From: Stutzerimonas stutzeri
GTDB lineage: Bacteria; Pseudomonadota; Gammaproteobacteria; Pseudomonadales; Pseudomonadaceae
Direction: 5' to 3'
Length of the DNA stretch: 64,000 bases
NCBI RefSeq assembly: GCF_015291885.1
Contig: NZ_CP036186.1
Coordinates: 2,245,001 to 2,309,000 of the forward strand
Each line of letters opens with the position of its first letter. The first letter of the stretch is position 1. A model generated the notes under the pieces. It did no database searches and was not told the DNA's origin. It was given only the letters and a program-made list of their open reading frames with translations. Made by a program: the position numbers and the translations under genes. This document shows positions 41,011 to 61,423 of this stretch, piece after piece.

Positions 41011-41856
41011 TCAGCCGGCCACGGCGCTGAGTTTGGCCAGCTGCTCGAGGTCGGTCTGCATGCCGGAGGTTTCGCGGATACGGGCGAGGATCTCGCGCTT
41101 GAGCTCGGTGAATTCCGGCGCGAGCTTCATGTCCTGATGCCGCTGGGCCGGCAGCGGCACCTCGTAGATGGAATCGATGCGCCCGGGGCGTGGCGCCATC
41201 AGCACGATGCGGGTGCCCAGATAGATGGCTTCTTCGACATCGTGGGTGACGAACAGGATGGTGCTCTTTTCCAGCCGGTGCACATGGCGGATCAGGTCGT
41301 GCATGACTTCGCGGGTCTGCGCATCCAGCGCACCGAACGGCTCGTCCATCAGCAGTGTCGCGGGTTTGGGCAGCAGGGCGCGAGCGATGGCGACGCGTTG
41401 CTGCATGCCGCCGGAGAGCTGGCTGGGGTAGGCATCGGCGAAGCGCGTCAGACCCATCAGGTTGAGCAGGGCATCGGCGCGGCCGGCGGCGGACTCCACG
41501 TCTCCATCGTGGCGCACGGTGTCGCCGATCACCTTGAGCTGGCGGCAGAACTTGATGTTCTGCATCACCGTCAGCCAGGGGTAGAGGCTGTAGTGCTGGA
41601 AGACCATGGCGCGGTCGACGCCGGGGCCGTCGATGGGCCTGCCGTCGAGCAGGATTTCGCCGCGACTCAGCGTCTCCAGCCCGGCGATGATGCGCAGCAG
41701 GGTGGACTTGCCGCAGCCGGAGGCGCCGACGAAGGTGACGAACTCGTTGGGCTGGATATCCAGGTCGATCGACTGCAGCGCCTGCACCTCACGGCGCTCG
41801 CTGACAAAGGTCTTGCCGACCTGGCGTACACGAATCTTGGCATCGGACATGGTCAT
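41011..41856 (-). CDS. ABC transporter ATPase of operon A
   Basis: A 281-residue ATPase of the nitrate/sulfonate/taurine (SsuB/TauB) type. Walker A is GASGCGKSTLLR, the Q-loop lies in VFQHYSLYPWLTV, the signature is LSGGMQQRVAIARAL, Walker B is TLLMDEPFGALD and the switch His is in FVTHDVEEA. The start at 41856 overlaps the permease stop (ATGA). It is the last gene of the operon headed by riboswitch A, so it most likely powers the permease at 41853 and the binding protein at 48494. Confidence 0.9.
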   Translation of the reverse strand: MTMSDAKIRVRQVGKTFVSERREVQALQSIDLDIQPNEFVTFVGASGCGKSTLLRIIAGLETLSRGEILLDGRPIDGPGVDRAMVFQHYSLYPWLTVMQNIKFCRQLKVIGDTVRHDGDVESAAGRADALLNLMGLTRFADAYPSQLSGGMQQRVAIARALLPKPATLLMDEPFGALDAQTREVMHDLIRHVHRLEKSTILFVTHDVEEAIYLGTRIVLMAPRPGRIDSIYEVPLPAQRHQDMKLAPEFTELKREILARIRETSGMQTDLEQLAKLSAVAG

Positions 41857-42731
41857 TTCCTCATCCAGGGAAAGGCGCGGCGGTGCAACCAGCGGAAGGC
41901 CTGATCGGTGAGCAGGCCGATCAGCCCGATCAGCAGGATGCCGGCGAAGATCTTGTCGGTGTGCATGTAGCGCTGCGCCTTGAGAATGGCGTAGCCGAGG
42001 CCGGAGTTGGCCGCGACCAGTTCGGCCACCACCAGGTAGGTCCAGGCCCAGCCGCAGGTGATGCGCAGGGTGTCGAGCAGCGCCGGCTTGGCCGACGGCA
42101 GGATCACCAGCTTGACGATCTCGCTGCGGTTGGCGCCCATGGTCTGCGCCGCCTCGATCTGCGCCATGGGTACGCGGCGCACGTCTTCGGCGACCATCAG
42201 GACCATCTGGAAAAAGGTGCCGATGAAGATGATCAGCACCTTGGAGCCTTCGTCGATGCCGACCCAGAGCATCACCAGCGGAATGAAGGCCACGGCCGGC
42301 ATGTAGCGAATGAAGTCGGTGAGCGGTTCTAGAAAGGCCTGCACCGGACGGTAGGTGCCGATGTACAGCCCCAGCGGCAGGGCGACCAGCGCCGAGGCGC
42401 CGAAGCCCGCCATGACCCGCCAGACGCTGATGCCGATATCCCCCAGCAGCCCCTCGCTGGTCCACCAGCGTCCGATGCGTTCGAGCACTGCGCCGGGGCT
42501 GGGCATAAACATCGGGTCGGCCAGGCCGAGGGCGGTCCATAGCCACCAGATGGCGAAGGGCAGGCTCAGTCCGGCGCCAGTTAGCAGCCAGGCACTGCGC
42601 CGCGAGAGGTCGCCGCGAATGCGCCAGAAACTGCCTTTGCGCACCACCGGTTCGGCTCGTGCGACGGGTGCTGTGGTGTGTCGTTGTTGAGCGGCGGGGG
42701 CAGCGGAGGGAATGCTGATCTGTGCGGTCAT
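41853..42731 (-). CDS. ABC transporter permease of operon A
   Basis: A 292-residue inner-membrane permease of the SsuC/TauC type with about six spans. The EAA loop is AQIEAAQTMGANRSEIVKLVILPSAKPALLDTLRI. The start at 42731 overlaps the preceding unknown gene by four bases. The N-terminal ~50 residues before the first span are Ala/Arg/Pro-rich and cytoplasmic. Confidence 0.88.
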   Translation of the reverse strand: MTAQISIPSAAPAAQQRHTTAPVARAEPVVRKGSFWRIRGDLSRRSAWLLTGAGLSLPFAIWWLWTALGLADPMFMPSPGAVLERIGRWWTSEGLLGDIGISVWRVMAGFGASALVALPLGLYIGTYRPVQAFLEPLTDFIRYMPAVAFIPLVMLWVGIDEGSKVLIIFIGTFFQMVLMVAEDVRRVPMAQIEAAQTMGANRSEIVKLVILPSAKPALLDTLRITCGWAWTYLVVAELVAANSGLGYAILKAQRYMHTDKIFAGILLIGLIGLLTDQAFRWLHRRAFPWMRK

Positions 42732-43537
42732 GCGGGAACCTCCTCTGTAGCGGTAGGCACATCCAGTTCGACGCGTTGCCAGCCGCCGGCCGCCTGATAA
42801 CGGCCCAGCGCGGCGAGGTCCGCGGCGGGAAGACTGGCGGGGTCGGCGAAGTTCCAGTAGCTCGACAACAGGGCGTCGCCGACGCGGCCGGGGAGCGTCG
42901 AGTGGGTGATTTGCCAGGGTGTTGCGCCATTGCGGTGGCGGCCGAAGGACAGCTCGCACGCCAGCAACTGTGGCCGCAGCGCGGGGCTGACGGCGGCCAG
43001 TTGGTCACGCAGATATCCTGTGCTGGCCGGCAGCAGAATCGGCCGCTCGGCAGCGAACAGGAAGTAGTCGCCCGCTACCAGCAGACAGGCCTGGCGGGCT
43101 GGCTGCTCCGCTGCGCGCAGCCAGATGCCCCAGCTGCGCCCCTGCGACTCCGGTAGGCGCTGCCAGATTTCGTGGTAGCTGCCGTCCAGCCCGTCCTCCA
43201 GCAGCCGCTCCGGGGTCTCGAAGCGCATCAGGCCGATATCCGCCGGTCCGCCCGGCGGCTGGAAGTCGATCAACCGATGCCACTGGCAGATATCGCCGTT
43301 GACCTCGGTGACGCCGGCGAAGCCAGCCTGCTCGCTCAGGGCCAGCTGCTGGGCATGGCTGCAGGTTTCTAGCGAGGCGGCTGGCGGCAGCGCTTGCGGC
43401 CGCGGCAGGCGCAGGTCGGCGTGCAGGCTGGCGGTTTGCAGCCAGTACACCTCGCTGGTTTCGTCACGCAAGCCGGCCGTCGTGGTCAGCAGGCGGCGGC
43501 GCCAGACGCCGAGATAGGCATCGGGAACGGTTTTCAT
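42728..43537 (-). CDS. Protein of unknown function in guanidine-riboswitch operon A
   Basis: A 269-residue soluble protein with no signal peptide or membrane span. It has many aromatic and beta-prone segments: VWRRRLLTTTAGLRDETSEVYWLQT, ASLHADLRLPRP, FAGVTEVNGDICQWHRLIDFQPPGG, YHEIWQRLP, ACLLVAGDYFLFAAER and TPWQITHSTLPGRVGDALL. The look is of two small beta-barrels, lipocalin-like, but I do not recognise a named family. It lies between the isochorismatase-family gene (49-base gap) and the permease (four-base overlap), so it should be translated together with the transporter. A role in binding or modifying the imported compound is only a guess. Confidence 0.75.
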   Translation of the reverse strand: MKTVPDAYLGVWRRRLLTTTAGLRDETSEVYWLQTASLHADLRLPRPQALPPAASLETCSHAQQLALSEQAGFAGVTEVNGDICQWHRLIDFQPPGGPADIGLMRFETPERLLEDGLDGSYHEIWQRLPESQGRSWGIWLRAAEQPARQACLLVAGDYFLFAAERPILLPASTGYLRDQLAAVSPALRPQLLACELSFGRHRNGATPWQITHSTLPGRVGDALLSSYWNFADPASLPAADLAALGRYQAAGGWQRVELDVPTATEEVPA

Positions 43538-43586
43538 GGGTAATGCTCCGCAAATGGCGTGCTTCGGACGCGATCAGGCTTAGGAG

Positions 43587-44246
43587 TCATGGCGATCCCT
43601 CCAACTGGCTCAGCAGCCCATGGCTGTCGATCACGCTGCCGAACAGGCCGCCTTCCACCTCGATCATCGCCAGCGCAGCCGCATGCAGTTGCGGGTCGGA
43701 CGAGGCGCAGGCATCGCAGACGGTCAGGCAGTCGAAGCCAAGGTCGATGGCCTGGCGCAGCGTCGAAGACACGCAGACCTCGGTAGTCACGCCGGTCAGG
43801 ATCAGCCGCTCGATACCGCGGCGGCGCAGGATCAGCTCCAGATCGGTGTAGGCAAAGGCGCTGTAGCCGGGCTTGTCGATCACCGGCTCGCCGGCGCGTG
43901 GTTGCAGTTCGTCGATCAGGTTATGGCCGAATTCGCCGCGCACCAGCAGGCGGCCGAGGGGGCCTGCGCTGCCGATGGGGGCGCCGGTCGCTTCGGCACG
44001 GCGGCGTTTGGGCTCGGGCAGGTCGGAGAGATCCGGGCGATGGCCTTCACGGGTGTGCACCACCAGCATGCCCACGCCGCGGGCGCGATCCAGCAGCGTC
44101 TGGATCGCCGGGATCGGCGCGCGCAGGCGGCTGACGTCCATGCCGGCCTGGTCGGCGTAGCCGCCCAGGGCGCAAAAGTCGCGCTGCATGTCGATCACCA
44201 GCAGCGCCGTATGCTCGGAGAGCAGCGGGTTCGTCGTCAGGCTCAC
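43587..44246 (-). CDS. Isochorismatase-like cysteine hydrolase (biuret/guanylurea/carbamoylsarcosine hydrolase type)
   Basis: A 219-residue isochorismatase-like amidohydrolase. The catalytic Asp is in LLVIDMQRDFCALGGY, the Lys in VIDKPGYSAFAYTDL and the Cys in LTGVTTEVCVSSTLRQA. HTREGHRPDLSDLPEPKRRRAEATGAPIGSAGPLGRLLVRGEFGH is the substrate-lid region. The family includes biuret, guanylurea, ureidoacrylate and N-carbamoylsarcosine hydrolases, all acting on C-N bonds of urea- or guanidine-like compounds. The start is GTG at 44246, overlapping the creatininase stop by four bases. Exact substrate unknown. Confidence 0.85.
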   Translation of the reverse strand: MSLTTNPLLSEHTALLVIDMQRDFCALGGYADQAGMDVSRLRAPIPAIQTLLDRARGVGMLVVHTREGHRPDLSDLPEPKRRRAEATGAPIGSAGPLGRLLVRGEFGHNLIDELQPRAGEPVIDKPGYSAFAYTDLELILRRRGIERLILTGVTTEVCVSSTLRQAIDLGFDCLTVCDACASSDPQLHAAALAMIEVEGGLFGSVIDSHGLLSQLEGSP

Positions 44247-45004
44247 AGGGCGAACTCCTTGCACACCGCGGCGGCTATGCCTTCGACGATGTCGTCGGCC
44301 AGCCGCTGGCCTTTCGCCGCGCTGGAGCCCTTGGCCGAGGACAGCACCCCGGAGGGCGGCACCCATTCGGTACGGGTGGGGTACATGTCGTAGGGCGGAA
44401 AGTCGGCCGGGGCGTCGTCGGGAATCTTCTCCAGCGCGACCAGTTGCGGATGGAAATGCAGCATCAGCGAGGTCTCGATCACCGCGGCATGCTCCAGCGC
44501 GAAACCGGGGAAGCCTTCCGGGAAGATGTCGGTCAGGGTCTGCTCGCGACAGAAATCCCAGTGCTCCAGGCGCATCACCTCCAGCCCGGCGTCCGGCCCG
44601 AGGTCGCGCAGCGCCAGCTGGATGCCCTCGGCGACGAACCACTGGTTCTCGTAATGGCCGAGCACCAGCACCAGGCGGCGCACACCGTGGCGATGGAATT
44701 CACGCACGGCGTCGCGCACCAGGGCGCTCAAGGTCGCGCCATCCAGGCTGGTGGTGCCGCAGAAGTGCTGGCCGCCGCCGCATTTCGGTTGCGACTTGTA
44801 GCCGTATGACAACGCCGGTGCGACCAGCCCGCCGACCCGCGCCGCGACGTCGGCACTGATCGCGCTGGCCAGCAGCGCGTCGGTGCCCAGCGGCAGGTGT
44901 GGGCCATGCTGCTCGGTGGCGCCGCAGGGCAGAAAGACCACGGCGCCTTCGCGCACGCGGCGTTCGTAGTCGACCCAGCTCAGTTGATCCATGTGCACGG
45001 TCAT
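44243..45004 (-). CDS. Creatininase-family amidohydrolase
   Basis: A 253-residue metal-dependent hydrolase. VFLPCGATEQHGPHLPLGTDALLA carries the metal ligands (Glu, His, Asp) of creatininase; LVLGHYENQWFVAEGIQLAL corresponds to the GHGGN/HYEN region, and EHAAVIETSLMLHFHPQLV carries the ligand Glu near the end. Creatininase itself opens creatinine, a cyclic methylguanidine, to creatine, which makes this a striking member of a guanidine-riboswitch operon. Other family members act on formamides or lactams, so the substrate is not settled. Overlaps of four bases on both sides. Confidence 0.85.
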   Translation of the reverse strand: MTVHMDQLSWVDYERRVREGAVVFLPCGATEQHGPHLPLGTDALLASAISADVAARVGGLVAPALSYGYKSQPKCGGGQHFCGTTSLDGATLSALVRDAVREFHRHGVRRLVLVLGHYENQWFVAEGIQLALRDLGPDAGLEVMRLEHWDFCREQTLTDIFPEGFPGFALEHAAVIETSLMLHFHPQLVALEKIPDDAPADFPPYDMYPTRTEWVPPSGVLSSAKGSSAAKGQRLADDIVEGIAAAVCKEFAL

Positions 45005-45885
45005 GCGCAGGTGCTCCTTGTCGCGATTGAAAGGGGACGTTCCGGCCAGCCGGCGATCAGCGCGGCGGTGGTGATAAGGGCGGCACCGAGCCATTCGTTC
45101 GGGCCGATGGCGTGGCTGCCGAACCAGGCGGACGACAGCACCGCGGCGATCAGCTCGAACACCACCAGCACTGCGGCGCGGCCGGCTTCCAGATGAGTCA
45201 GGCCGTACTGCACAGCGGCCATGCTGACCAGCCAGCCGAGGGCGAGCAGGGTGATCTGCCAGCTCAGGGTCAGATCCAGGGGCGGAAGTGGCTGGCGCAG
45301 CAGCAGGCAGAACAGCCCACCGAGCAGCGCGCTGCCGACGAAACTGACCAGCGCCTTGCTCGCCAGCGGCACCCGGTCGGCGGCGCGAGTGGCGAGGTTG
45401 TTGAGGCTGAAGGCGAGGCCGGCGGAAAGTGCCAGCCAGTCGTTCGCGCCGGGTGCGTCCAGCGCTTCGCTCGTGACGCCGAGGGTCAGGCCGATGCCGA
45501 GCATCGCCAGCCCCAGGGCGAACAGCCGTGTGCCGCTGAGGCGTTCGCCGAGCAGCAGCCAGCCGCCGACCATCGCCCACACCGGCGCCAGGTAGAACAG
45601 CAGCATCACCCGCACCACGTTGCCGTCGGCCAGGGCGGTAACCAGGGCGGCGGTGGCCCAGCCACCGCACAGGCCCATGGTGAGCACCTGGCGATACTGG
45701 CTCGCCCACAGGCGGCGCTGCTGCCAGAGCACTGGCAGCGCCAGCAGGCTGAGTAGCGAATAGGTCAGCAGCACCAGCGGCATGCCGGCCAGGCCGCGGG
45801 CCGCGAAGAACTGCAGCGGCAGCCAGCCCAGCCCCCACATGATGGCGCCGCCGATCAGCATGCCCTGTGGCATCAGGCTGTTCAT
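45001..45885 (-). CDS. EamA/DMT-superfamily transporter
   Basis: A 294-residue protein with ten hydrophobic helices in two EamA repeats (LMPQGMLIGGAIMWGLGWLPLQFFAARGL; LSAGLAFSLNNLATRAADRVPLASKALVSFVGSALLGGLF). DMT transporters export small polar compounds. In this operon it may export a product or an inhibitory intermediate, for example guanidine, whose efflux genes are common guanidine-riboswitch targets (inference; the known exporters are SMR type, not EamA). Start at 45885 overlaps the SDR by four bases. Confidence 0.83.
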   Translation of the reverse strand: MNSLMPQGMLIGGAIMWGLGWLPLQFFAARGLAGMPLVLLTYSLLSLLALPVLWQQRRLWASQYRQVLTMGLCGGWATAALVTALADGNVVRVMLLFYLAPVWAMVGGWLLLGERLSGTRLFALGLAMLGIGLTLGVTSEALDAPGANDWLALSAGLAFSLNNLATRAADRVPLASKALVSFVGSALLGGLFCLLLRQPLPPLDLTLSWQITLLALGWLVSMAAVQYGLTHLEAGRAAVLVVFELIAAVLSSAWFGSHAIGPNEWLGAALITTAALIAGWPERPLSIATRSTCA

Positions 45886-46637
45886 GCGCCCATCCAGGAG
45901 CCGCCGTTGGGCCCGAGCAGCTGTCCGGTGAAATAGCTCGCCTGCGGCGAAAGCAGGAAGACGATGGCCGCCGCGACTTCCTCCGGCGTACCCAGGCGAG
46001 CCATGGGGATCGCCAGCTCCTTGGCCATCCACTCGTCGCTCATGTGCTCCGGGCTGACCATCGCCGTGGCGATGGGGCCGGGCGCGACGCCATTGATGCG
46101 GATGCCGTCTGCAGCGAATTCGCGCGCCAACGAGCGGGTCAGGCCGATCACCCCGGCCTTGGCGGTGCAATAGGCGGCGTACTGTTCGCGGCCGAGAAAT
46201 CCGAGGTCCGAGGCGACATTGACGATGGCGCCGCTGCGCCGCGGCTGCATGTGTGCCAGTGCATGGCGGCAGCAGCGGTAGACGCCGGCGAGATCGACGC
46301 CCAGCACCCTTGCCCAGTCCGCCTCGCTGGTTTCGAGAAAGGGCTTTTCCAGGATCACCCCGGCGTTGTTGACCAGCAGATCCAGCGGTCCCTGCGCCTG
46401 GATGGTCTCGAACATTGCCGCGACCGCGGCCGGATCGCTGACATCGGCCTCGATGGCCCAGGCGCAGCCGCCGTTGGCGATGACCTGCTCGAGCACTCGT
46501 TCCGCCAGGTCGTGTTGATCGCGATGGTTGATCCAGACCCGCGCGTCTTCGGCGGCCAGCGCGAGTGCAGTGGCGCGGCCGATACCGGTCGCCGCGCCGG
46601 TGACCAGAGCGGTCTGCCCGGTAAAGATGGCAGCCAT
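45882..46637 (-). CDS. Short-chain dehydrogenase/reductase (operon A, second)
   Basis: A 251-residue classical SDR: TGAATGIG cofactor motif (~13-20), LLVNNAGVILEKPFLETSE, catalytic IVNVASDLGFLGREQYAAYCTAKAGVIGLTRSLA with Ser, Tyr and Lys, and NGVAPGPIATAM. NAD(P)-linked, cytoplasmic. Shares one base with the end of the first SDR (TGATG). Together the two SDRs could oxidise an alcohol or hemiaminal made by the desaturase-like enzyme encoded just upstream (inference). Confidence 0.85.
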   Translation of the reverse strand: MAAIFTGQTALVTGAATGIGRATALALAAEDARVWINHRDQHDLAERVLEQVIANGGCAWAIEADVSDPAAVAAMFETIQAQGPLDLLVNNAGVILEKPFLETSEADWARVLGVDLAGVYRCCRHALAHMQPRRSGAIVNVASDLGFLGREQYAAYCTAKAGVIGLTRSLAREFAADGIRINGVAPGPIATAMVSPEHMSDEWMAKELAIPMARLGTPEEVAAAIVFLLSPQASYFTGQLLGPNGGSWMGA

Positions 46638-47425
46638 CAGTGCATCACCTCGCCGTGGCTGACCGACAGCGCCTGGCCGGTCAGGGCGGCGGCCAGCGGT
46701 GAGCCAAGGAACAGGAAGGTGCCACCCAGATCGGCCGGTGTCAGCAGCTCCGGAATGGCCTGGTTGGCGAGTATCGCCGCGAGCTCGGCGCTGTCGCTGC
46801 GGCCGTTGGCGTCCGCCATCACCTGCAGCGAGCGCATGGCCGCATCGGTGCCGATCCAGCCGGGGCACACCGCGTTCACCCGGATGCGCCGCGGGCCCAG
46901 CTCCCAGGCCAGCGAGCGGGTCAGACCGACCACCGCGTGCTTGCTGGCGACATAGGCGGAAAAGCCCGGCACGCCTTTCAGGCCCCAGATCGAGGCCTGG
47001 TTGATTACGCTGGCGCCGGCACGCAGACGTGGCAGCAACGCACGGGTCAGGCGCTGCATGGAGCCGACGTTGTTCTCCAGCAGGGCCGACCAGCGCTGAT
47101 CGGCGTCGAAGCTGCACTCATCCAGCGGTGTGGCGTATTCGACGCCGGCGTTGTTGACCAGCACATCGGCATTGAGGCCGCGGCAGGCGAGGTCATCGGC
47201 GTACTGCTGCACTGCCTGGCGATCGCCCAGGTCCAGTGCGGTGCAGTGCAGCGACGTGTCGCCAGCGAGTTCGTCGGCAAGCCGGGCGAGGGCGTCGGCG
47301 TCACGATCCAGCAGTTCCAGGGTGGCGCCGGCAGCGGCGAAGCTCTGCGCCAGGCCCCGGCCGATGCCCCCGGCGGCGCCGGTGATGACCACGCAACGGC
47401 CTCGGTAATCCAGTGCCTTGTGCAT
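46637..47425 (-). CDS. Short-chain dehydrogenase/reductase (operon A, first)
   Basis: A 262-residue classical SDR: ITGAAGGIGRGLAQSFAAAGATLELLDRD, VLVNNAGVEYATPLDECS, SVINQASIWGLKGVPGFSAYVASKHAVVGLTRSLAWELGPRRIRVNAVCPGWIGTDAAM. The acidic residue ending beta-2 (LLDRD) favours NAD over NADP. It begins one base after the desaturase stop codon, so the two are tightly coupled. Substrate unknown. Confidence 0.85.
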   Translation of the reverse strand: MHKALDYRGRCVVITGAAGGIGRGLAQSFAAAGATLELLDRDADALARLADELAGDTSLHCTALDLGDRQAVQQYADDLACRGLNADVLVNNAGVEYATPLDECSFDADQRWSALLENNVGSMQRLTRALLPRLRAGASVINQASIWGLKGVPGFSAYVASKHAVVGLTRSLAWELGPRRIRVNAVCPGWIGTDAAMRSLQVMADANGRSDSAELAAILANQAIPELLTPADLGGTFLFLGSPLAAALTGQALSVSHGEVMH

Positions 47426-47426
47426 G

Positions 47427-48449
47427 TCACACCGCCGTCAGGAACGAGACGCCCACGGCGCCGTAGAAGTTGTCGGCCTTGTGCGGCCCTTCGCTCACCA
47501 CGCCGTAGTCATCGTCCAGCACGCGGCGCACGCGGTAGCGGTGGAAGCTGCCGAGCAGCTTGCGCATCGGAATGACCTGGTTGTAGGTGCTGCCGTACAG
47601 CTCGGCATGCAGCCTGGGCAGGCGATACCAGGGCGCCACGGGCTTTTCGTGGTGGGCGTTGTGGAAAGAGAAGTTGAGCAGCAGCAGGTTCAGCGCCGGC
47701 CAGCGCTCGGAAACCACGTTGCTGTAGGTGTTCTGCTGCTCGTAGCTGCGGTCGCGGCGCTTGTCCTCCGGCAGCTTGCCACCGTCTTCCAGCACGGCGA
47801 AGGCCTCGTAGGTGTGCTGATAGGCATCGGCGAAGCGCAGCACGCTGAGCATGATCATCCAGGCTACGGCGTAGAGCAGCACGGCCTTCGGCGAGAGCAC
47901 CGCAAGCCCGGCAAAAAGCAGTGTGCGAACGGCCAGCACCGCGGCGACCTTGCCGCGCCGGGCGCGGTGCTTGTCGTTGTCGGTGATGAAGGGCAGGGCG
48001 ATCACGTAGAAATGCATGATCAGTTCCACCGCCGGCACATAGGCCCATTCCAGCGCCAGCACCAGCTTCTGGAACCACACGGGGCGCGCCTTGAGAAAGG
48101 CCTTGCTGTCGAAGGTGATCACGTCGGCGCGGTCGACGTGGTGGCGCATGTGCTTCTTGCGCAGGTCCTGGAACTCGGCGTAGCAGCTGCCGCACAGCCA
48201 GCTGCAGACATTGCCGGCCCATTCGTTGTGCTTGGGCACGCTGAAGATGGCGCCGTGGGCGAATTCGTGGATCAGGTAGGCGGCGATGATCATGCCGTGG
48301 GCCAGCAGCAGCGTGCCCAGCGCGTTCAGCCAGCCGTTACCGGCGAACAGCAGAGCCAGGCCACCGGCGTAGGCGAGTACGGTGTAGAGGATCGCCAGCG
48401 TGTTTGGCAGGCGGCCATCGGCGTAACGGTACAGAGGTTTGGCAGTCAT
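47427..48449 (-). CDS. Membrane di-iron fatty-acid-desaturase-family hydroxylase/desaturase
   Basis: A 340-residue integral membrane protein with four or more spans and the three His boxes of the family: HEFAHG (~52-57), KKHMRHH (~98-104) and FHNAHHE (~265). These bind a non-heme di-iron centre that uses O2 and electrons from a redoxin to hydroxylate or desaturate C-H bonds. The ATG at 48449 has GGAG six bases upstream; an in-frame GTG at 48464 is less likely. Being second in a guanidine-riboswitch operon, it is more plausibly a hydroxylase of an alkylguanidine-type compound than a lipid desaturase (inference). No ferredoxin gene is adjacent. Confidence 0.85.
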   Translation of the reverse strand: MTAKPLYRYADGRLPNTLAILYTVLAYAGGLALLFAGNGWLNALGTLLLAHGMIIAAYLIHEFAHGAIFSVPKHNEWAGNVCSWLCGSCYAEFQDLRKKHMRHHVDRADVITFDSKAFLKARPVWFQKLVLALEWAYVPAVELIMHFYVIALPFITDNDKHRARRGKVAAVLAVRTLLFAGLAVLSPKAVLLYAVAWMIMLSVLRFADAYQHTYEAFAVLEDGGKLPEDKRRDRSYEQQNTYSNVVSERWPALNLLLLNFSFHNAHHEKPVAPWYRLPRLHAELYGSTYNQVIPMRKLLGSFHRYRVRRVLDDDYGVVSEGPHKADNFYGAVGVSFLTAV

Positions 48450-48493
48450 GGTTTTCTCCAGCACAGGCGGGCAACGGCCCGCCCGGCATCGGC

Positions 48494-49495
48494 TTACTGG
48501 GCGAGCGCTTCGGTGAATTGGGCGTCGTAGGTCTGGCTGAAATCCGGGATGGTCGGGATCTGCCCGTTGTCCTTGAGCAGCTTGGCGATGATCGCGCCGC
48601 TGCCATGGAAGGAATGGGTGTCGTCGCCTGGGCTGAAGCTCTTGCCCATCTCCGCAAGGGGGATGTTGTAGGCGCCGACCATCTGCTCGACGGCTTCTTC
48701 GGCGCTGACGCCAAGCACCTCACCGATGATCTTCGCCGACTCCTCAGGGTGCGCCTGCATGTAGGCCAGGCCGTCGAGATAGCCCTGGATCATCGCCTTG
48801 ATGGCGGCGGGCTTCTTGGCGATCACCGCCTCGTCGAACACCAGTACATCAGTGATCAGCCCCGGTGCGTCCTTGGACGAATAGACCACCTTGAATTTGT
48901 CGCCGCCGCCCATGGAAAGGATCTGCGAGACGTTGGGCTCGTAGGTCACGCCGACCGGCAGGTTACCCGAGGCCATGGCGCCGGGGATGCCTTCCGGGGT
49001 CATGTTGACGGCATTGATGTCCTTGTCGCTCATGCCGTTCTGCTGCAGCGCATAGGCCAGCAGGAAGTCGGAGGGCGACAGTGGATTGAAGCCGACCTTC
49101 TTGCCCTTGAAGTCGGCCACGGACTGAATCGAGGCATCGGCAACGATGGCGTCACCGCCATTTGAGAAGTCGATGGGCATCACCACCCGGTGCTTCAAGC
49201 CCTTGGCGACCGAGGCCACTACCTGGTCGTAGGTGAGCATGCCACCGTCCAGCGCGCGGCTTACCATGGCGGTGGGGATCAGCGCCGGGTCGTTGAAGAA
49301 CTGCAGGTCCACGTCCAGGCCGTGGGGCTTGAACAGGTCGAGCTTGTTGGCAACATAGAAGGGGCCATAGCCGGCCCAGACCACGGTGCCGATCTTCAGC
49401 TTCTCGGCAGCCTGGCTGGCCAGCGGTGAAAACAACGTCGCGACGGCCAGGCCGGCGGCGAGGAGGGTCTTGTTCAGCGAGCGCAGTGTGGACAT
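48494..49495 (-). CDS. ABC substrate-binding protein of operon A
   Basis: A 333-residue periplasmic protein of the NMT1/SsuA/TauA type. Signal peptide MSTLRSLNKTLLAAGLAVAT...SQAAE, then LKIGTVVWAGYGPFYVANKLDLFKPHGLDVDLQFFNDPALIPTAMVSRALDGGMLTYDQVVASVAKG and DFKGKKVGFNPLSPSDFLLAYALQQNG. First gene after guanidine-I riboswitch A (49545-49635). It probably delivers its ligand to the permease/ATPase pair at the far end of the same operon. The ligand is presumably a guanidine derivative. Confidence 0.88.
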   Translation of the reverse strand: MSTLRSLNKTLLAAGLAVATLFSPLASQAAEKLKIGTVVWAGYGPFYVANKLDLFKPHGLDVDLQFFNDPALIPTAMVSRALDGGMLTYDQVVASVAKGLKHRVVMPIDFSNGGDAIVADASIQSVADFKGKKVGFNPLSPSDFLLAYALQQNGMSDKDINAVNMTPEGIPGAMASGNLPVGVTYEPNVSQILSMGGGDKFKVVYSSKDAPGLITDVLVFDEAVIAKKPAAIKAMIQGYLDGLAYMQAHPEESAKIIGEVLGVSAEEAVEQMVGAYNIPLAEMGKSFSPGDDTHSFHGSGAIIAKLLKDNGQIPTIPDFSQTYDAQFTEALAQ

Positions 49496-49544
49496 GGCGT
49501 GATTTCCCTACACATTGGAATGACAGGCACGGGATGACATCGCG

Positions 49545-49635
49545 TCTCCCGGGCTTTTATCCCTCCGTGTAGTCCCGTCCCTGGGACCGGAGAACTCTCG
49601 GACCAGCGCCCACTCCCTGTGAGCCGGAACCCTAG
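49545..49635 (-). ncRNA. Guanidine-I (ykkC) riboswitch A
   Basis: The minus strand contains the ykkC-I consensus in order: CTAGGGTTCCG (49635-49625), CTGGTCCGAGAGTT, ACACGG and GGGATAAAAGCCCGGGAGA ending at 49545. It stands 49 bases before the binding-protein start. A downstream ATCCCGTG (in 49526-49540) can pair with CACGG...GGAT of the aptamer, a possible switching helix. It senses free guanidinium and turns genes on. Confidence 0.95.
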
Positions 49636-49667
49636 TTCTCCTTGAAGTTGCTCCTGTGATTGTGCCA

Positions 49668-51662: not shown

Positions 51663-53480
51663 TCAAGGCTGCTCCGCTTGGCTGCGTTGCGCCAACCAAG
51701 ACTTCCAGCCGCCGAAACGAGTGATGTCCTCGGCATCGGCCAACCCATAGCCGTCGCAGATAAAGCCGGTTTCCCAGCGCCCGTCATCTAGCTCCACTTT
51801 GCCCAGGCCCAGCGGCGCGGGGATGCCGGTCAGGAAAGAGCCCAGCTCGCTGCTGGGGATGTCCCAGACTTCCACGGCAATCGCCGCGCCACCCTCGGCG
51901 ACACGCACCATCCCCGGGCGTAATATCGGGCCGCCGGCCAGCGCATAGAGCTTGTACGCCGCGCTGCTGGTGGTTGCCTCCAGCAGCCGACCGCCGCGCT
52001 GGCGAAGTTGCCAGTTCAGCGGCAGGCCATCGAGGTGCGCACCGCAGACGACTACTCTTGATCGGTCGCTGCGCGCCGGATTCTGCGGGGCAGGTGTTGT
52101 GATCGCATTGCTGCCCACCAGGGCCAGGCCGGTCTTGCGTTGCAGTGCGTCTGCCAGGCTCAGCAGGTATTGGTCGGTGAACACGCGGCCGAACAGCGTC
52201 ACGCCCCAGGGCAGCTCGTTCTCCATAACGCCGGCAGGTGCAGCCACGGCGGCGTAATCCAGCATGTTCATGAAGTTGGTGTAGTAGCCCAGGTCCGAGT
52301 TGCGCTTGACCGGTTCGGCGTGAAGCTCGGCGAGCGTCACCGGGCGCGGGTACGCGGGCGTCAGTACGCAATCGACCTCGGCCATGATCCGGTCGCAGAT
52401 GGCCTTCAGCTGCTGCAGGCGGTATTGCGCTTCGAACAGTTGCACGGCGGTGGTGACCGGTGCCTTTTCCAGTACCGCCTTTATCACCGGCAGGACGGCG
52501 TCGGGTTGCTGCTCGATCAGCGCGCCGGCCACGCTATAGCGTTCGGCGACCCAGGGGCCTTCGTAGAGCAGGCGCGCGGCTTCTAGGAAGGGCGAAAAGT
52601 CCATTTCCACCGGCTCGCCACCGATGGCTTTTAGCTGCTCAATGGTGGCGGCGAACAGCGCCGGACTTTCCGGGCAGCCGAGGAATTCGAGTTGCTTCGG
52701 CACACCGAAGCGAAAGGGTTTCACCTGGCCAAATGCCGTGCCGTCGTTCCACAGCGGGTTGGCGCGGCTGTATTCGTCATGCGGATCGAGCTTGGCGGTG
52801 AGCGCCAGCAGCTGGCTGGCTTCGGCCGCTGTGGCGGTGAAGAAGGTCACGCAGTCCAGCGTGCGACAGGCCGGGACAACGCCGGCGGTGGAGATTAGCC
52901 CTTTGCTGGCCTTGAGGCCCACCAGATTGTTCAGCGCCGCCGGCACGCGGCCGGAGCCTGCGGTGTCGGTGCCCAGGGCAAAAGTGCACAGGCCCAGCGC
53001 CACGGCCAGAGATGAGCCGGCGCTGGAGCCACCGGAGGGGTAGTCGGGGCGCACGCTGTTGCGGCACTCGCCATAGGGCGAGCGGGTGCCGTTGAGCCCG
53101 GTGGCGAATTGGTCGAGGTTGGTCTTGCCGAGTGGTATTGCTCCCAGCGCAATCAACTGTTCGACGATGGTGGCGCTGGTTTCAGGGGTGTAGGCGAACG
53201 CCGGGCACGCAGCAGTCGTGGGTATGCCGGCCAGGTCGATGTTGTCCTTGATGGCGAACGGGATGCCGTAGAGCGGCAGCTTGTCTGGCGTCTTGTTCTC
53301 CAGTGCGGTCAGGTAGGGTTCGAGCTCTTCGACGCTTAGCAGGTGGATAAAGGCGTTGAATTCCCCGTTCAGTTCAGCGGCCGTGGCGTGTAGTTGCAGG
53401 ATCAGCTGGCGCGGGGTCGTGGTGCCGGCTTCATAGGCATTGCGCAGCGTGTCGAGGCGCAGATCGAAATGGGTCGTCAT
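51663..53480 (-). CDS. atzF: Allophanate hydrolase
   Basis: A 605-residue amidase-signature enzyme that splits allophanate into ammonia and CO2. The Lys-cisSer-Ser triad is in IPFAIKDNIDLAG, YPSGGSSAGSSLAVALG and GTDTAGSGRVPAALNNLVGLKAS. The extra C-terminal domain of ~130 residues (RVVVCGAHLDGLPLNWQLRQRGGRLLEATTSSAAYKLYALAGGPILRPGMVRV) is the AtzF/DUR1,2 C-domain. The start at 53480 gives MTTHFDLRLDTLRNAY. Last gene of operon B; a 728-base gap of repeats separates it from the carboxylase gene. Confidence 0.93.
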   Translation of the reverse strand: MTTHFDLRLDTLRNAYEAGTTTPRQLILQLHATAAELNGEFNAFIHLLSVEELEPYLTALENKTPDKLPLYGIPFAIKDNIDLAGIPTTAACPAFAYTPETSATIVEQLIALGAIPLGKTNLDQFATGLNGTRSPYGECRNSVRPDYPSGGSSAGSSLAVALGLCTFALGTDTAGSGRVPAALNNLVGLKASKGLISTAGVVPACRTLDCVTFFTATAAEASQLLALTAKLDPHDEYSRANPLWNDGTAFGQVKPFRFGVPKQLEFLGCPESPALFAATIEQLKAIGGEPVEMDFSPFLEAARLLYEGPWVAERYSVAGALIEQQPDAVLPVIKAVLEKAPVTTAVQLFEAQYRLQQLKAICDRIMAEVDCVLTPAYPRPVTLAELHAEPVKRNSDLGYYTNFMNMLDYAAVAAPAGVMENELPWGVTLFGRVFTDQYLLSLADALQRKTGLALVGSNAITTPAPQNPARSDRSRVVVCGAHLDGLPLNWQLRQRGGRLLEATTSSAAYKLYALAGGPILRPGMVRVAEGGAAIAVEVWDIPSSELGSFLTGIPAPLGLGKVELDDGRWETGFICDGYGLADAEDITRFGGWKSWLAQRSQAEQP

Positions 53481-53551
53481 GGTTGGCTTCCTCTGTGGCA
53501 GGCCTGGTCTGTTCGGGCGGTCGGGATTCAGGTCAGGCTGGCGGCCCTTTC

Positions 53552-54045
53552 CCCTCACCCCAGCCCTCTCCCCAAAGGGGCGAGGGGGTTGATCCGGTGT
53601 TGCTGGCGGTCTTTGTGGTCTGGCGTTGCTTTGGTGCTGTTAGTCCGGCGCCTGTGGTGTGTGTCGTGGCGAGGCATCTGGTTGGGTTTCTTTCCCTCAC
53701 CCCAGCCCTCTCCCCCAAGGGGGCGAGGGGGTTGATCCGGTGTTGCTGGCGGTCTTTGTGGTCTGGCGTTGCTTTAGTGCTGTTAGTCCGGAGCCTTTGA
53801 TGTGTGTCGTGGCGAGGCATCTGGTTGGGTTTCTTCCCCTCTCCCCGGCCCTCTCCCCCAAGGGGCGAGGGGGTTGATCCGGTGTTGCTGGCGGTCAGGT
53901 GGTCCGGTGTTGCTTTAGTGCTGTCAGTGCGGAGCCTGTGGTATGTCGTGGCGGAGGAACTTGGTTGGGCCTCTTTCCCCTCACCCCAGCCCTCTCCCCA
54001 AAGGGGCGAGGGGGTTGATTCGGTGTTGCTGTTGGTCTGTGGTCT
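53552..54045. repeat. Four tandem ~142-base units, each with a REP-like palindrome
   Basis: Near-identical units start at 53552, 53694, 53837 and 53978 (steps 142, 143 and 141). Each opens with CCCTCACCCCAGCCCTCTCC, then CCAAAGGGGCGAGGG, which folds into a GC hairpin, followed by a shared spacer (TTGATCCGGTGTTGCTGGC and onward). The last copy degrades after about 54045. They occupy the untranslated gap between the carboxylase and atzF genes. Confidence 0.85.
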
Positions 54046-54208: not shown

Positions 54209-57200
54209 TCAAACCTCCTCGATCACCACCACCCGTTGGCCGGCGCGCACCGGAGAGCCGGGTTGCACACGGATGTCCTTCACCACCCCGGCGACCGGAG
54301 CGATGAGCGGAATCTCCATCTTCATGCTCTCAAGGATCACCAGCACGTCGCCGGCAGCCACGCGCGTGCCCTCAGCCACCGACACCTGCCAGAGATTGCC
54401 GGCGATATGGCTCTCGATGCCGTGCTGGCCGCAACCGAGCGGGGCGTCCTCGCCGAGATCGGCCGCTACTTCCTCGCTCTCGAAATGCGCCAGCCCCGAT
54501 TCGATCCAGCGCTGGCGTTCGGCGTCGAAGGCGCCGCGCTGCTGGCGGCGGAAGGTGTCGATGCTGTCGGCCTCGGCGGCGAGAAAGCCCTGGTAGTCCG
54601 ACAGGCGCAGCTCGGTCTCCTCGATCCTCAGTGGGTAGCGGCCCAGCGGGAAATCGCGGCGGATCTTCTGCAGATCCTCGGCCGAGACCGGGAAGAAGCG
54701 GATCTGGTCAAAGAAGCGCAGCAGCCACGGCTGGCCGCCGAAGGCCTCGACCGCGCGGTAGCGGTTCCACATCTGCAGGGTGCGGCCGACGAACTGGTAG
54801 CCGCCCGGGCCTTCCATGCCGTAGATGCACATGTACGCGCCGCCGATACCCACCGAATTCTCCGCTGTCCAGGTACGCGCCGGGTTGTATTTGGTAGTAA
54901 CCAGACGGTGGCGCGGGTCCAGCGGGGTGGCCACCGGCGCGCCGAGGTAAACGTCACCCAGGCCCATCACCAGGTAGCTGGCCTCGAACACCGTGCGGTA
55001 CACCTCGTCGAGGTTCGGCAGGTCGTTGATGCGACGGATGAACTCCAGGTTGCTCGGGCACCAGGGCGCGTCCTTGCGGACCGTGGTCATGTACTTCTCG
55101 ATCGCCAGCTGGCAAGCCGGGTCGTCCCAGGACAGCGGCAGGTGGACGATGCGCGAGGGCACTTTGAGATCCTGCGCGGCGCACACTGCGTCCCACAGGC
55201 CGGCAACCGTCTCCAGCAGCGCGGTCAGCGGCAGGGTTTCCGGCTGGTAGTGGACCTGCAGGGAGCGGATACCGGGCGTGAGGTCGATGACGCCGTCGAG
55301 GTTCTCGGCTTCGAGGGCCTGCATCAAGGCATGGCCGCGGAAGCGCAGCACCAGGTTCAGTTCCGGTGCGCCGATTTCTAGCAGCAAATGGGTGTCGCCG
55401 GAGAGTCGGGCGACCAGACGGGTGTCGTCCTGGCCGAGGTCGAGGACGATGGGGGAGGTGAGCGCATATTCCGCAGACTGCGCGTAAATGCCCCCTCTCC
55501 CCCCGGGAGAGGGCTGGGGTGAGGGGCTTTTGCTGTCGGTTGAAACAGCCATCACCCCGATCGCGGGCCGCCCCGGCCCCTCTCTCGGAGGGAGAGGGGA
55601 GACAAGCGCGCACTCTTCGCGCCGGGCTCTTGCCAGCTCCCGCGCTGTGGCGATATCCACCGGGACAAAGCGCACTTTATCCCCTGCCTTAAGCTGCCCG
55701 AGCTGCCACAGGTCCGCCTCGATAATGGTCACCGGACAGACAAACCCCCCCAGGCTCGGGCCGTCCGGGCCGAGGATCACCGGCATGTCGCCGGTGAAGT
55801 CCACCGCACCGATGGCGTAGGGGTTGTCGTGGATATTGGATGGATGCAAACCGGCTTCGCCGCCGCTCTCGCGCACCCATTCGGGCTTGGGCCCGATCAG
55901 ACGCACGCCGGTGCGGCTGGAGTTGAAGTGCACTTCCCAGTCGGTGGCGAAGAAACGCGCGATATAGCTTTCGGTGAAATACTCCGGCGCGCCGTGCGGG
56001 CCGTAGATCACCCGCAGCTCGCGCACCGCCGGCAAGGCGCTGCACAGCTCGTCTGCCAGCGTGGCGCCGGCAGACGAGTCGCTCAGCGGCGCCAGGTGCA
56101 GCACGTCGCCGGCACGCAGGGCGCGGCCGCCGTGACCGCCGAACTGGCCGAGGGTAAAGGTGCTCTTGCTGCCCAGATACTCCGGCACCTGCACCCCGCC
56201 GCGCACGGCCAGGTAGGAGCGGGCACCGGCGCCGGCGATGGTGCCGATGGTCAGGGTGCTGCCGGCCTTGACCAGAATGGCAGTGCACATCGGCTGCGCG
56301 ACGTCATCGAGCCTGAGCGGAATCTCGGCACCGGTGACCGTCACCACCGCATCGGTGTTAAAGCGCAGAATCGGTCCGCTCATGGTGATTTCCAGCCCGG
56401 CGGCGTCCTCGGGGTTGCCCAAAAGGGCATTGCCCAGGCGCAGCGCGCGGCTGTCCATCGGGCCGGACGGCGGCACGCCCACCGCCCAGTAGCCGAGGCG
56501 ACCGGGGAAGTCCTGCACGGTGGTCTGGGTGCCGGCGCTGATGACCTCGAAGGTATCGGCCTTGTAGCTGAGGCCCTCCAGACAGCGGGTCCAGGGGTTG
56601 CCGCTGGCAAACGGGGTGAAGGCAAGGATCTGGCGCAAGTAACCGCGGTTGGTTTCCACACCGTAGAGCAGGGTGTCGCCGAGGGCGGCGTCCAGCGCAA
56701 CGCGGGCGTCCTCGCGGCTCGGCGCCCAGGTGATGATCTTGGCGATCATCGGGTCGAAATACGGCGGGATCTCGCAGCCAGCCTCGACCCAGGTGTCGAT
56801 GCGCAGTTGCCGGCTTTCCGCTTCCGGGAAATTAACGGCGGTGAGCAGGCCCGGGCTCGGCTGGAAATCCCGGCCCGGGTCTTCGGCGTAGACGCGCGCT
56901 TGGATCGAGTGGCCGCTGGGCTTGAGACCCTTCACCAGCTCGGCCAAAGGCGGCAGGTCGCCGGCGGCCAGCTCGATCATCCAGCGCACCAGATCGACGC
57001 CCCAGACCTGCTCGGTGACGCCGTGCTCGACCTGCAGGCGGGTGTTCACCTCGAGGAAGTAGAAGCGCAGGGCCTCAGCGTCGTAGACGAACTCGACGGT
57101 GCCGGCGCTGCGGTAGTCGACGGCCTTGGCCAGCGTGATAGCCGCTTCGCACAGGGCCTCGGCCATGCCGGCCGGCAGGTTCGGTGCCGGAGTTTCCTCC

Positions 57201-57913
57201 AGCACCTTCTGGTTGCGTCGCTGCACCGAGCAGTCGCGCACGCCGAGGGCGATGACGTCGCCGGCACCATCGCCGAACACCTGTACTTCCAGATGGCGGG
57301 CGCGCTCGATGTACTTCTCGATGAATACGCCCGAATCGCTGAAGTTGTTCTGCCCCAGGCGCTTGACCGCGTCGAAGGCCTCGGCGAGTTCCGCCGCCGA
57401 GCGGCACACGCGCATGCCGATACCGCCACCGCCTGCGGTGCTTTTCAGCATCACCGGGTAGCCGACCTGCTCGGCTGCGCCGAGGGCATCGGAAAGGCTG
57501 TCGAGCAGCTCAGTGCCCTCCAGCATCGGTACGCCGCGTTGTTTGGCCAGGGCGCGGGCGGTGTGCTTGAGGCCAAACACCCGCAGCTGTTCTGGCGTCG
57601 GGCCGACAAAGGCGATGCCGGCGGCTTCGCAGGCTTCGGCAAAGGCGGCGTTCTCGGAGAGAAAGCCGTAGCCGGGGTGAATGGCTTTCGCGCCGGTTTC
57701 CCGGGCGATGCGGAGAATCTTCTCCACCACCAGATAGGTCTGCGCTGCCGGGCCTTCGCCCAGGCTGTGGGCCTCGTCGGCCTGCTGGATATGCAGGCTG
57801 GCGGCGTCGGCCTCGGAGTAGACGGCCACGCCTTTCACATCCAGGGCGCGCAGCGTACGCAGGATGCGGCAGGCAATGGCGCCGCGGTTGGCGATCAGCA
57901 GTTTGTTGAACAT
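54209..57913 (-). CDS. Guanidine carboxylase (urea-carboxylase family)
   Basis: A 1234-residue biotin enzyme. Biotin carboxylase spans ~1-450 ([61 protein letters not shown]). AHS2/KipA-like domain ~465-770 ([26 protein letters not shown]) and AHS1/KipI-like domain ~815-1020 form the carboxyltransferase, and biotinyl domain ~1165-1234 has [11 protein letters not shown]. It was long called urea carboxylase; when linked to guanidine-I riboswitches and DUF1989 partners, the enzyme carboxylates guanidine. Residues ~772-808 are translated REP DNA inserted in frame at the AHS2-AHS1 junction. GC/UC specificity should be checked at the active-site residue. Confidence 0.9.
   Translation of the reverse strand: [1234 protein letters not shown]
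55490..55600. repeat. REP pair (BIME) inserted in frame within the carboxylase gene
   Basis: 111 bases (37 codons) containing two opposed palindromes: CCCTCTCCCCCCGGGAGAGG plus GCTGGGGTGAGGGG (55492-55526), and CCCCTCTCTCGGAGGGAGAG (around 55577-55597). The peptide reads [11 protein letters not shown] ... [13 protein letters not shown], the usual translation of such repeats. The length is a multiple of three, so the frame is kept. Confidence 0.82.
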
Positions 57914-58071
57914 GGTCAGTAACCCTCGAAGGGCTGGCGGGCCGTCCCGCCTTTATTCATCAGTGCCACGGCCGTCCGTGGTTGGGGAGGGTTTCTTCGT
58001 TGCCTGCAGCTCGGGGCGCTGCCCGGCGCGCGCCTGCAGCAGCGGCAGCAGGTGGCGTCGCAACAGCGCCA

Positions 58072-58707
58072 TCAGTCCCACACCAGCACCTCGGCGGGCG
58101 TCGGGTTCCAGCCGTTGCAGGGGTTGTTCAGCTGCGGGCAGTTGGAGATCAGTACGATCACGTCCTGCTCGGCCTTCAGCTCCACGTACTTGCCTGGTGC
58201 GGAAAGGCCGTCCTCGAAGGTCAGGCCGCCCTCGGGCGTCACCGGCACGTTCATGAAAAAGTTGATGTTGGCGCCGATGTCGCGCTTCTCTAGACGGCCG
58301 TCGTGCAGGCTGGCGCGCAGGAAGTTGTCGCGACAGCTGTGCATGTAGCGCTTGTCCAGCGCGTAGCGCACCACGTTGCTCTCCTGGGCGCAGGCGCCGC
58401 CGAGGGTATCGTGGCGACCGCAGGTGTCGGCGACGATGGTCAGCAAGGGGTTGCCGAGGTTGGAATACAACACCGTGCCGGCGGTGAGATAGACCTTGTT
58501 CTGCCGGCGCAGGGTGCGCTGCGGGTCAAAGCGTTCGCGTGGGTTCTTCGCGCTGAAGAACAGCGTGTCGATGGCTTGATTGCCCTCGACATCCAGCAGG
58601 CGCAGGGTCTGCCCGGCCTTCACTTCGAACAGGTACGGCTCGCCGGCCGGAATCAGGTGCCGGAAGCTGGCGGTTTCGGGATGCAGGCTGCTTTCTACGA
58701 TGGTCAT
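58072..58707 (-). CDS. Carboxyguanidine deiminase subunit (DUF1989, UAAP2-like)
   Basis: A 211-residue DUF1989 protein: [88 protein letters not shown]. Cys and His in ADTCGRHD are probably metal or catalytic residues. Two DUF1989 subunits (CgdA/CgdB, formerly urea-amidolyase-associated proteins) convert carboxyguanidine to allophanate, the step between the carboxylase and AtzF. Which subunit is A or B I leave open. It follows the other DUF1989 gene by 13 bases; a 158-base gap precedes the carboxylase. Confidence 0.9.
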
Positions 58708-58720
58708 GTCGGCAACCTCT

Positions 58721-59449
58721 TCAGATGTAGAGTCGTTCGGTGTTGTGGAAGCCCCGGCCGTTCTCCGGGCGCGAAGTGCGGCAGAGCACGCTGATGCCGT
58801 CGCTCTCGACCTTGTGCCAGCTCAGCTGCACCGGTTTGGGTGCGTACAGCGGATTGGGATCCAGCGGATGCTGCAGGGCGGTGAGGATCACCAGGGTGTC
58901 CATCGGCGCGTACAACTCCAGGTAATCGCCGGCCTTGGAGTTGCCCTGGTGGAAGGCGAAGGTGCCGTCGGCGGTGACGTCCACCCGACTGAACAGATTG
59001 AGCACCATGAGCAGGTCCTGCAGGTTGAGGTTCCACTTGCCCATTTCCACCAGCAGGTTGTCGGTGCCATTGCGGAAGAAGCCGTTGCGCAGTTCCTGAT
59101 AGCGACCCTGGCCGTACTTCTCGGCGACTTCATCGGCGTTCAGCACGCCGCCAAAGCTGTCGTGCCAGCCGCAGGTGTCGGCGGTGATGGCAGCGAGTAC
59201 GCGGCCCATGTCCGAGTAGAGGCAATGACCGGCGGTGAGCTTGGCGGTGTGCTGGCACTTGAGGGTGTCCGGCAGGTTCAGCCGCTCGCTCTTCTCCTGG
59301 GCGTTGAGCAGCATCAGGCTGACGTTGGCGCCGCCTTCGAGATCGGTCAGACGCAGCAGCTGGCCACGCTTGAGGACGAAGGAGGTGTGGCCGCCACCGG
59401 GAACGGTTTCCTCGTACAGCGTGGGGCGGATCGCGAGTGAAGCGCTCAT
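58721..59449 (-). CDS. Carboxyguanidine deiminase subunit (DUF1989, UAAP1-like)
   Basis: A 242-residue DUF1989 protein: [86 protein letters not shown]. The ADTCGWHD motif parallels the partner subunit. The frame opens upstream to 59524, but MSASLAIRP at 59449 is right next to the ATPase stop (59451). Predicted to form the heteromeric deiminase with the 58072-58707 product. Confidence 0.9.
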
Positions 59450-59450
59450 G

Positions 59451-61227: not shown

Positions 61228-61279
61228 GGCAAACCCTCCAGTATTGGGAATAGCGCAGGAGCTGCGTGCGATCACGCTG

Positions 61280-61368: not shown

Positions 61369-61423
61369 TCGGCTATTTCAAATTGTCTTGCAGATGCAGC
61401 AGCTTTCTTCGCACAGGATGTAA

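Follow-up and report, generated by a model that had tools for sequence, protein, structure and literature searches.

From which compound, and by which enzymes, would a bacterium free the guanidine that its riboswitches recognise? Natural guanidine sources are poorly understood: guanidine riboswitches are widespread and few guanidine-producing reactions are described, as far as the available parts of two publications go (PMC12186494, PMC12508155). The question is raised by a stretch of 64,000 nt from Stutzerimonas stutzeri (GCF_015291885.1, contig NZ_CP036186.1, positions 2,245,001-2,309,000), hereafter the window, whose positions serve as coordinates. It contains an operon headed by a guanidine-I riboswitch (operon A) and, about 2 kb upstream, an operon of the guanidine carboxylase type (operon B) with guanidine-I and guanidine-II riboswitches of its own. 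Sequence analysis suggests, with fairly good confidence, that operon A is a riboswitch-headed pathway for the import and dealkylation of an alkylguanidine, the guanidine being passed to the carboxylase of operon B. It points to a second, unrelated class of oxygenase that would free guanidine.

Operon A (49646-41011, on the minus strand, as are all genes and riboswitches of both operons) was read from its open reading frames as the riboswitch followed by ten open, co-directional genes. The aptamer at the head (49544..49646) was recognised by Rfam RF00442 with 86.4 bits against a gathering threshold of 63. The genes overlap or lie within 4 nt of each other at seven of nine junctions, the remaining two gaps being 44 and 49 nt. 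An initial annotation of this DNA had named the riboswitch and the ten-gene set and had described genes that overlap or abut almost throughout; Rfam, Pfam and NCBIfam confirmed the families, and the junctions agreed.

The product of 42728..43537 (269 residues) had been left as an unknown protein in that annotation. Indeed, no Pfam or NCBIfam match was obtained at E 0.001, and the HRI1 domain was reached weakly by some of its relatives; the protein is nevertheless identifiable as a homologue of MgdL. According to the available part of the report, MgdH-MgdL is the methylguanidine demethylase of Vreelandella boliviensis, in which MgdH is a 2-oxoglutarate dioxygenase and MgdL a characterised N-(hydroxymethyl)guanidine lyase of narrow specificity, modelled as a beta-barrel and requiring Asp49 and Arg51 (PMC12508155). 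The characterised gene pair was located via the published primers: 82 genomes of one genus were searched with the mgdL start primer, three matched, and in one locus (L198) all four published mgdH/mgdL cloning primer sites were present, in order. By BLASTP the operon A protein is 30% identical to the MgdL of L198 over 235 columns (E 1e-20). The catalytic D49 and R51 of MgdL align on D41 and R43, which are invariant in 13 rows alongside W, E and D residues; across the 29 rows of the MgdL-like alignment, D41, R43, W32, W86, W125, E114 and E123 are all invariant. Comparison with the MgdL orthologue of L122, a locus with the published gene order in which the preceding gene encodes a 2-oxoglutarate-Fe(II) oxygenase, gave 33% identity (E 3e-24) and, in a profile search, E 4.5e-31. 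Sequence searches of the PDB with the protein and with its profile returned no match. The AlphaFold model (mean pLDDT 92) found its best PDB fold in yeast YLR301w (E 4e-4), the sole fold match under E 0.001 and presumably HRI1 itself. The product of 42728..43537 is thus proposed to be an MgdL-type lyase homologue with an HRI1-type beta-barrel, a putative N-(hydroxyalkyl)guanidine lyase.

A 2-oxoglutarate/Fe(II) dioxygenase of the MgdH type is not among the ten genes of operon A; a membrane di-iron protein of the 'fatty acid desaturase' family is present instead (47427..48449, PF00487, 2.1e-35), hereafter the desaturase. The box histidines 61/65, 100/103/104 and 263/266/267 are invariant in 18 aligned rows, which places the protein in the membrane di-iron FA_desaturase superfamily. 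Its nearest curated relative by full-length profile is GntB, described in the accessible text as the L-arginine hydroxylase of the guanitoxin pathway (PMC10367076). This precedent was counted in favour of the proposed role, since GntB is already an example of a membrane enzyme with a guanidino substrate. The desaturase would share with GntB the membrane type and the hydroxylation of a guanidino substrate, along with the full-length match; it differs in its weak score with the GntB profile NF041365 (25.8 bits, cut-off 380), which leaves it outside that family. When the desaturase profile was searched against PDB sequences, no match was obtained, and a plasmid search gave a single distant record, from Gloeothece. 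With the structural model (pLDDT 83) the top fold matches came from two chloroplast FtsHi motor complexes, with one chain of each (8.2e-4, 3.7e-3); AlkB came next among few, weak matches (E 0.03 and 0.12). We infer that the desaturase acts on alkylguanidines. By analogy its substrate would be methylguanidine, the simplest candidate and the one suggested by the narrow specificity of MgdL.

The pairing of oxygenase and lyase was followed in 97 desaturase loci, 13 of which were cut off and hence uninformative. Among the 84 informative loci, 65 contain an MgdL-like gene alone and 17 a TIM-barrel gene alone; none has both, and two (L089, L174) have neither. Some loci had been fetched by other genes (L178-L181 and L193 via the TIM gene, L174 and L175 via the creatininase gene). 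Restricting the count to the 90 loci that the desaturase had retrieved leaves 77 informative ones, with 64 MgdL-like, 12 TIM, none with both and one with neither. L027 and L084 are the same locus taken twice, and L041 and L042 are identical in desaturase DNA. The TIM gene encodes a xylose-isomerase-like TIM barrel (PF01261), unrelated to the MgdL-like protein, and is separated from the desaturase gene by 6 to 66 nt in 11 loci. Searched alone across 390 genomes of the order, it turned up in 24 (E 1e-20). In the 22 places that were read (all except G209 and G264), it adjoins or lies within one gene of a desaturase (10) or of an MgdH-like dioxygenase (11), the remaining place being a contig end with UAAP genes alongside. 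With the MgdH of L122 these dioxygenases share 52 to 58% identity. L173, reached by another route, has a TIM and an MgdH-like gene too. All four combinations of the two oxygenases (MgdH, desaturase) with the two putative lyases (MgdL, TIM) therefore occur, and the TIM-barrel protein is a candidate for a second, unrelated lyase.

In L173 (12083-15060) and L182-L192 the MgdH-like dioxygenase gene stands beside or near the TIM gene, and L173 has in addition an agmatinase-family ureohydrolase. Rfam scans of seven of these loci detected no guanidine riboswitch; the loci possibly represent another alkylguanidine pathway.

The desaturase is rare: among 398 Pseudomonadota genomes, 7 have it at E 1e-20, the window's own being one of them. 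A search of 97 relatives found it in 41 genomes at E 0.001 (four of these weakly). Neighbourhoods were compared in the best 80 of 560 relatives from a scan of named genomes, some loci being cut by contig ends. These 80 span Stutzerimonas, Pseudomonas, Burkholderiales, Thiobacillus, Gallionellaceae, Acidithiobacillus and Acidocella, so that among the matches listed the desaturase-type system extends over Pseudomonadaceae, Burkholderiales, iron and sulfur oxidisers and acidophiles. Present anywhere in the locus were the binding protein (76 of 80), the two short-chain dehydrogenases SDR1 (58) and SDR2 (60), the EamA transporter (55), the creatininase (57), the isochorismatase (59), the MgdL-like gene (60) and a carboxylase (25). 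The co-occurrence check suggested with the initial annotation thus turned out in its favour: the gene set recurs far outside the genus and is not a chance neighbourhood. With a covariance model built from seven Rfam-confirmed aptamers (two from the window, five from desaturase loci), guanidine-I was found in 70 of the 80 loci, one of them partial at a contig edge. It was not found in L044, L053, L090, L098, L101, L102, L108, L111, L114 and L115; in three of these, L053, L102 and L115, the DNA upstream is missing. The smallest loci, L027 (the same as L084) and L028, consist of binding protein, desaturase, MgdL-like protein, permease and ATPase, with no match to a creatininase or SDR. As side observations, L091, L094, L097 and L104 contain a second desaturase copy.

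The transport genes of operon A frame this core. The periplasmic substrate-binding protein (48494..49495) is NMT1/SsuA-like (Pfam NMT1, 3.8e-26; matches to SsuA_fam and TIGR03427 stay below cut-off) and is proposed to be the importer subunit; the ABC permease (41853..42731, BPD_transp_1, 1.5e-27) and ABC ATPase (41011..41856, ABC_tran, 7.5e-32) close the operon. In the proposed mechanism, the ABC transporter would take up a substituted guanidine; methylguanidine is the probable one, creatinine a further possibility. The membrane di-iron protein would hydroxylate a carbon bound to a guanidine nitrogen (in methylguanidine, the most likely case, the methyl group), and the MgdL-like beta-barrel protein would split the hemiaminal into guanidine and an aldehyde (formaldehyde). 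The freed guanidine would act on the riboswitches and then be degraded by the carboxylase of operon B; guanidine is accordingly expected to induce operon A. A simple scan of 49400-50000 gave no match to a sigma-70-like promoter or an intrinsic terminator around the aptamer, and a terminator platform for this riboswitch was set aside as unsupported by the sequence scans.

The proposed dealkylation pathway is supported at the sequence level by the riboswitches, the gene order, the MgdL homology with its catalytic pair and the oxygenase-lyase pairing across genomes. Di-iron hydroxylation next to a guanidine nitrogen, release of guanidine and its feeding to operon B, as suggested in the initial annotation, gain support of the same kind from the MgdL homologue and from the desaturase in the place of MgdH. 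That annotation also knew of no described system with this gene set. The set as such was indeed not found described; the logic itself is that of MgdH/MgdL, with another oxygenase and, in the operon figure legend of that report, no SDR, creatininase or amidase genes (PMC12508155). Both systems combine an oxygenase with an MgdL-family lyase and its Asp-x-Arg pair, guanidine riboswitches, a link to the carboxylase and an ABC importer. In contrast to the published pair, as far as the accessible part describes it, the oxygenase of operon A is a membrane di-iron desaturase-family protein, the genes form a separate operon, and SDRs, creatininase-like and biuret-hydrolase-like proteins and EamA are added, in many relatives also a lactonase-like protein (PMC12508155). 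In a literature search without most subscription papers and all bioRxiv preprints, neither a desaturase-family guanidine-releasing enzyme, nor a TIM gene in such a role, nor this gene set was described. Searches on creatinine degradation with guanidine and riboswitch found nothing, and those on guanidine with riboswitch and fatty acid desaturase nothing relevant. What is possibly new here is a desaturase-based variant of the MgdH/MgdL logic and, as a further possibility, a creatinine pathway.

Several observations weigh against this interpretation. The GntB score lies far under the cut-off. Of nine relatives that were scanned, GntB was not matched at E 0.01 by five, namely L023-L026 and P0233. 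An identity of 30% to MgdL, an enzyme itself narrow in specificity, does not fix the substrate. The genome also encodes three further 2-oxoglutarate oxygenases that share 32-41% identity with MgdH. On the desaturase tree (47 desaturases below 90% identity) the TIM loci of Gallionellaceae are nested among MgdL-type loci and the partner changes at least twice, so that the independent events are few. Finally, guanidine-I accompanies 61 of 65 MgdL-type loci but only two of 17 TIM-type loci (L022, L025). It was not found at L023, L024, L026, L098, L101, L108, L111, L114 and L176-L181, while L193 has guanidine-II. The link to guanidine is therefore weaker at TIM-type loci; those without a riboswitch could be under riboswitches beyond the fetched DNA, or could serve another compound. 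On the supporting side, a carboxylase gene cluster includes both the desaturase and the TIM gene in L025 and in L193. L193 is one co-directional cluster of ABC genes, creatininase-like, glutamine-synthetase-like, desaturase, TIM, UAAP1, UAAP2, carboxylase and allophanate hydrolase genes with a guanidine-II riboswitch.

The remaining genes of operon A encode SDR1 (46637..47425, adh_short_C2, 8.2e-47), SDR2 (45882..46637, adh_short_C2, 1.2e-63), the EamA-family transporter (45001..45885, EamA, 1.6e-17) and two hydrolases. The first, a creatininase-family amidohydrolase (44243..45004), passes the NCBIfam creatininase equivalog TIGR04448 (387.9 bits, cut-off 235) and is 51% identical to Pseudomonas putida creatininase (1j2t, 1q3k). 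In 19 operon copies aligned with that enzyme the metal-ligand positions are retained. The protein also keeps the positions of Trp154 and His178 and differs from that enzyme at 78, 174 and 175; the metal ligands, Trp154, His178 and the active-site Trp174 are assumed here to have these roles in creatininase. The position of Trp174 is Phe in 60 and Tyr in 5 of 65 aligned operon copies (Phe in the window). Position 175, Asp in P. putida, is Ala in all 65 and position 78 is Cys in 64 of them. Asp175 was dropped as a diagnostic site because Ala is also found in L145 and L141, and position 174 alone was used. The creatininase copy of L172 keeps Trp174. The M24-family gene beside it, initially read as a creatinase, was dropped as such, NCBIfam giving only peptidase and ectoine-hydrolase matches below cut-off. 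In the genome of the window the best match to a putative creatinase, a query that NCBIfam does not name, was partial with 26% identity and thus no good one. Operon-type creatininases (at least 200 bits) were found in 55 MgdL-type loci, in both loci with neither lyase gene and in no TIM-type locus of the 84 informative ones; the family member of L193 is distant (27% identity).

The second hydrolase, an isochorismatase-family amidase with a GTG start (43587..44246), is nearest to biuret hydrolase, but with 269.3 bits against a cut-off of 370 for NF050097 it falls outside that family. By profile it belongs to the same isochorismatase subfamily as biuret hydrolase BiuH (6azo, 6xjm) and probably guanylurea hydrolase. 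Its nearest PDB chains are 6azo ('putative amidase', 1.9e-68) and 6xjm ('biuret hydrolase', 3.1e-67), and the Lys replaced in PDB variants appears to be kept. The SDRs, the creatininase-like and the biuret-hydrolase-like protein would form an optional upstream module yielding an alkylguanidine from a larger or cyclic precursor. Elsewhere, L169, L170 and L171 contain genes for a binding protein, permease, ATPase, creatininase-like protein, SDR1 and SDR2, with no desaturase match or guanidine-I; L171 adds a UAAP2-like gene and an M20 gene, which we take to be carbamoylase-like.

How this module would be used can be extended in one direction that gives every enzyme family a step: the proposal is that methylguanidine would be made from creatinine along the creatol/creatone route. 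With the structures of the creatones as background, an oxygenase would form 5-hydroxycreatinine (creatol), an SDR 5-oxocreatinine (creatone A), the creatininase creatone B, and the amidase methylguanidine and oxalate, from which the core would free guanidine. The accessible texts describe the conversion of creatinine into methylguanidine, with creatol, creatone A or creatone B as intermediates, and call it unclear whether this is enzymatic and by which enzymes (PMC11970497, PMC3775425). According to a title in the reference list of the former, the enzyme that produces methylguanidine in rat liver is L-gulono-gamma-lactone oxidase (PMC11970497); the claim of a first enzyme is therefore not made. 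A family member in which the Trp174 position is uniformly Phe or Tyr would fit such an altered substrate, and a second desaturase accompanies the creatininase in L091, L094 and L097. The poor creatinase match in the genome also speaks for this route. That second desaturase is found in only 4 of 97 loci, so that one enzyme would usually need two activities, and one SDR is left over. Moreover, the cassettes of L169-L171 combine SDR1, SDR2, creatininase and an ABC transporter without the oxygenase or guanidine-I, and the substrate of the module may thus be another compound. The creatinine route is therefore regarded as a tentative extension, and the entire chain from creatinine through di-iron oxygenase, SDR, altered creatininase and amidase to an oxygenase with an MgdL-type or TIM-barrel lyase, ending at riboswitch and carboxylase, as slightly more doubtful still. 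On either, the SDR, creatininase and amidase genes gain a testable job, and named genes could explain how the vertebrate waste products creatinine and methylguanidine return to the nitrogen cycle.

The equivalog score, the kept metal-ligand positions and the poor match to a creatinase for the usual next step would also suit a classical opening of the ring, in which the creatininase makes creatine from creatinine and the desaturase and lyase strip the N-methyl or N-carboxymethyl group to leave guanidine. Neither of the SDRs nor the amidase would then have a function, and the active-site position is altered across the operon clade, so that we regard it as unlikely.

A longer guanidino substrate is judged improbable to the same degree. 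Hydroxylation beside the guanidine group would then yield guanidine and a semialdehyde, handled by the SDRs and, in relatives, by a lactonase-like protein of the metallo-beta-lactamase (MBL) type. The two SDRs, the EamA transporter and the MBL gene, which stays below all NCBIfam cut-offs and is found in 52 of the 84 informative loci, speak for it. The MBL gene is kept in four of five compared sister loci; L040 lacks it like the window, where about 68 bp (43622-43555, between the isochorismatase and MgdL-like genes) stand in place of the gene of about 0.8 kb. A search with a distant copy found none in the window's own genome. Hydroxylation of arginine and homoarginine is a known source of guanidine, and the products 5-hydroxyarginine and 6-hydroxyhomoarginine are reported, in the part of the article available, as too unstable for detection (PMC12186494). 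Such products should need no lyase, yet the MgdL-like lyase is conserved, and the creatininase and amidase are left unexplained. That the desaturase is an ordinary lipid enzyme sitting in the operon by chance, as membership in the FA_desaturase family might suggest, was rejected as highly improbable, because it is rare among Pseudomonadota and because many families conserve it together with the binding protein, the riboswitch and a lyase.

The destination of the guanidine in the proposed dealkylation pathway, operon B, begins with a guanidine-I riboswitch (61279..61379, RF00442, 97.6 bits), followed by permease, ATPase, UAAP1 and UAAP2 genes (58072..61111; UAAP1 328.8 and UAAP2 319.3 bits, both above cut-off, permease and ATPase being named from sequence). 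A guanidine-II riboswitch (57937..57983, RF01068, 40.4 bits, gathering threshold 32) lies ahead of a carboxylase of the urea/guanidine carboxylase family (54209..57913, TIGR02712, 1853.6 bits, cut-off 1303.85), and an allophanate hydrolase follows (51663..53558, TIGR02713, 768 bits, cut-off 511). With carboxylase, UAAP1, UAAP2, allophanate hydrolase and guanidine riboswitches, the set of the guanidine carboxylase pathway is complete, and from the riboswitches we infer guanidine rather than urea as the substrate of the carboxylase. Downstream of operon A (39980-37395), a type III glutamine synthetase (581 bits) is paired with a binding protein of TIGR03427 (508 bits), a urea-carboxylase-linked family. 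The pair recurs in many sister loci, and its binding protein may serve operon B.

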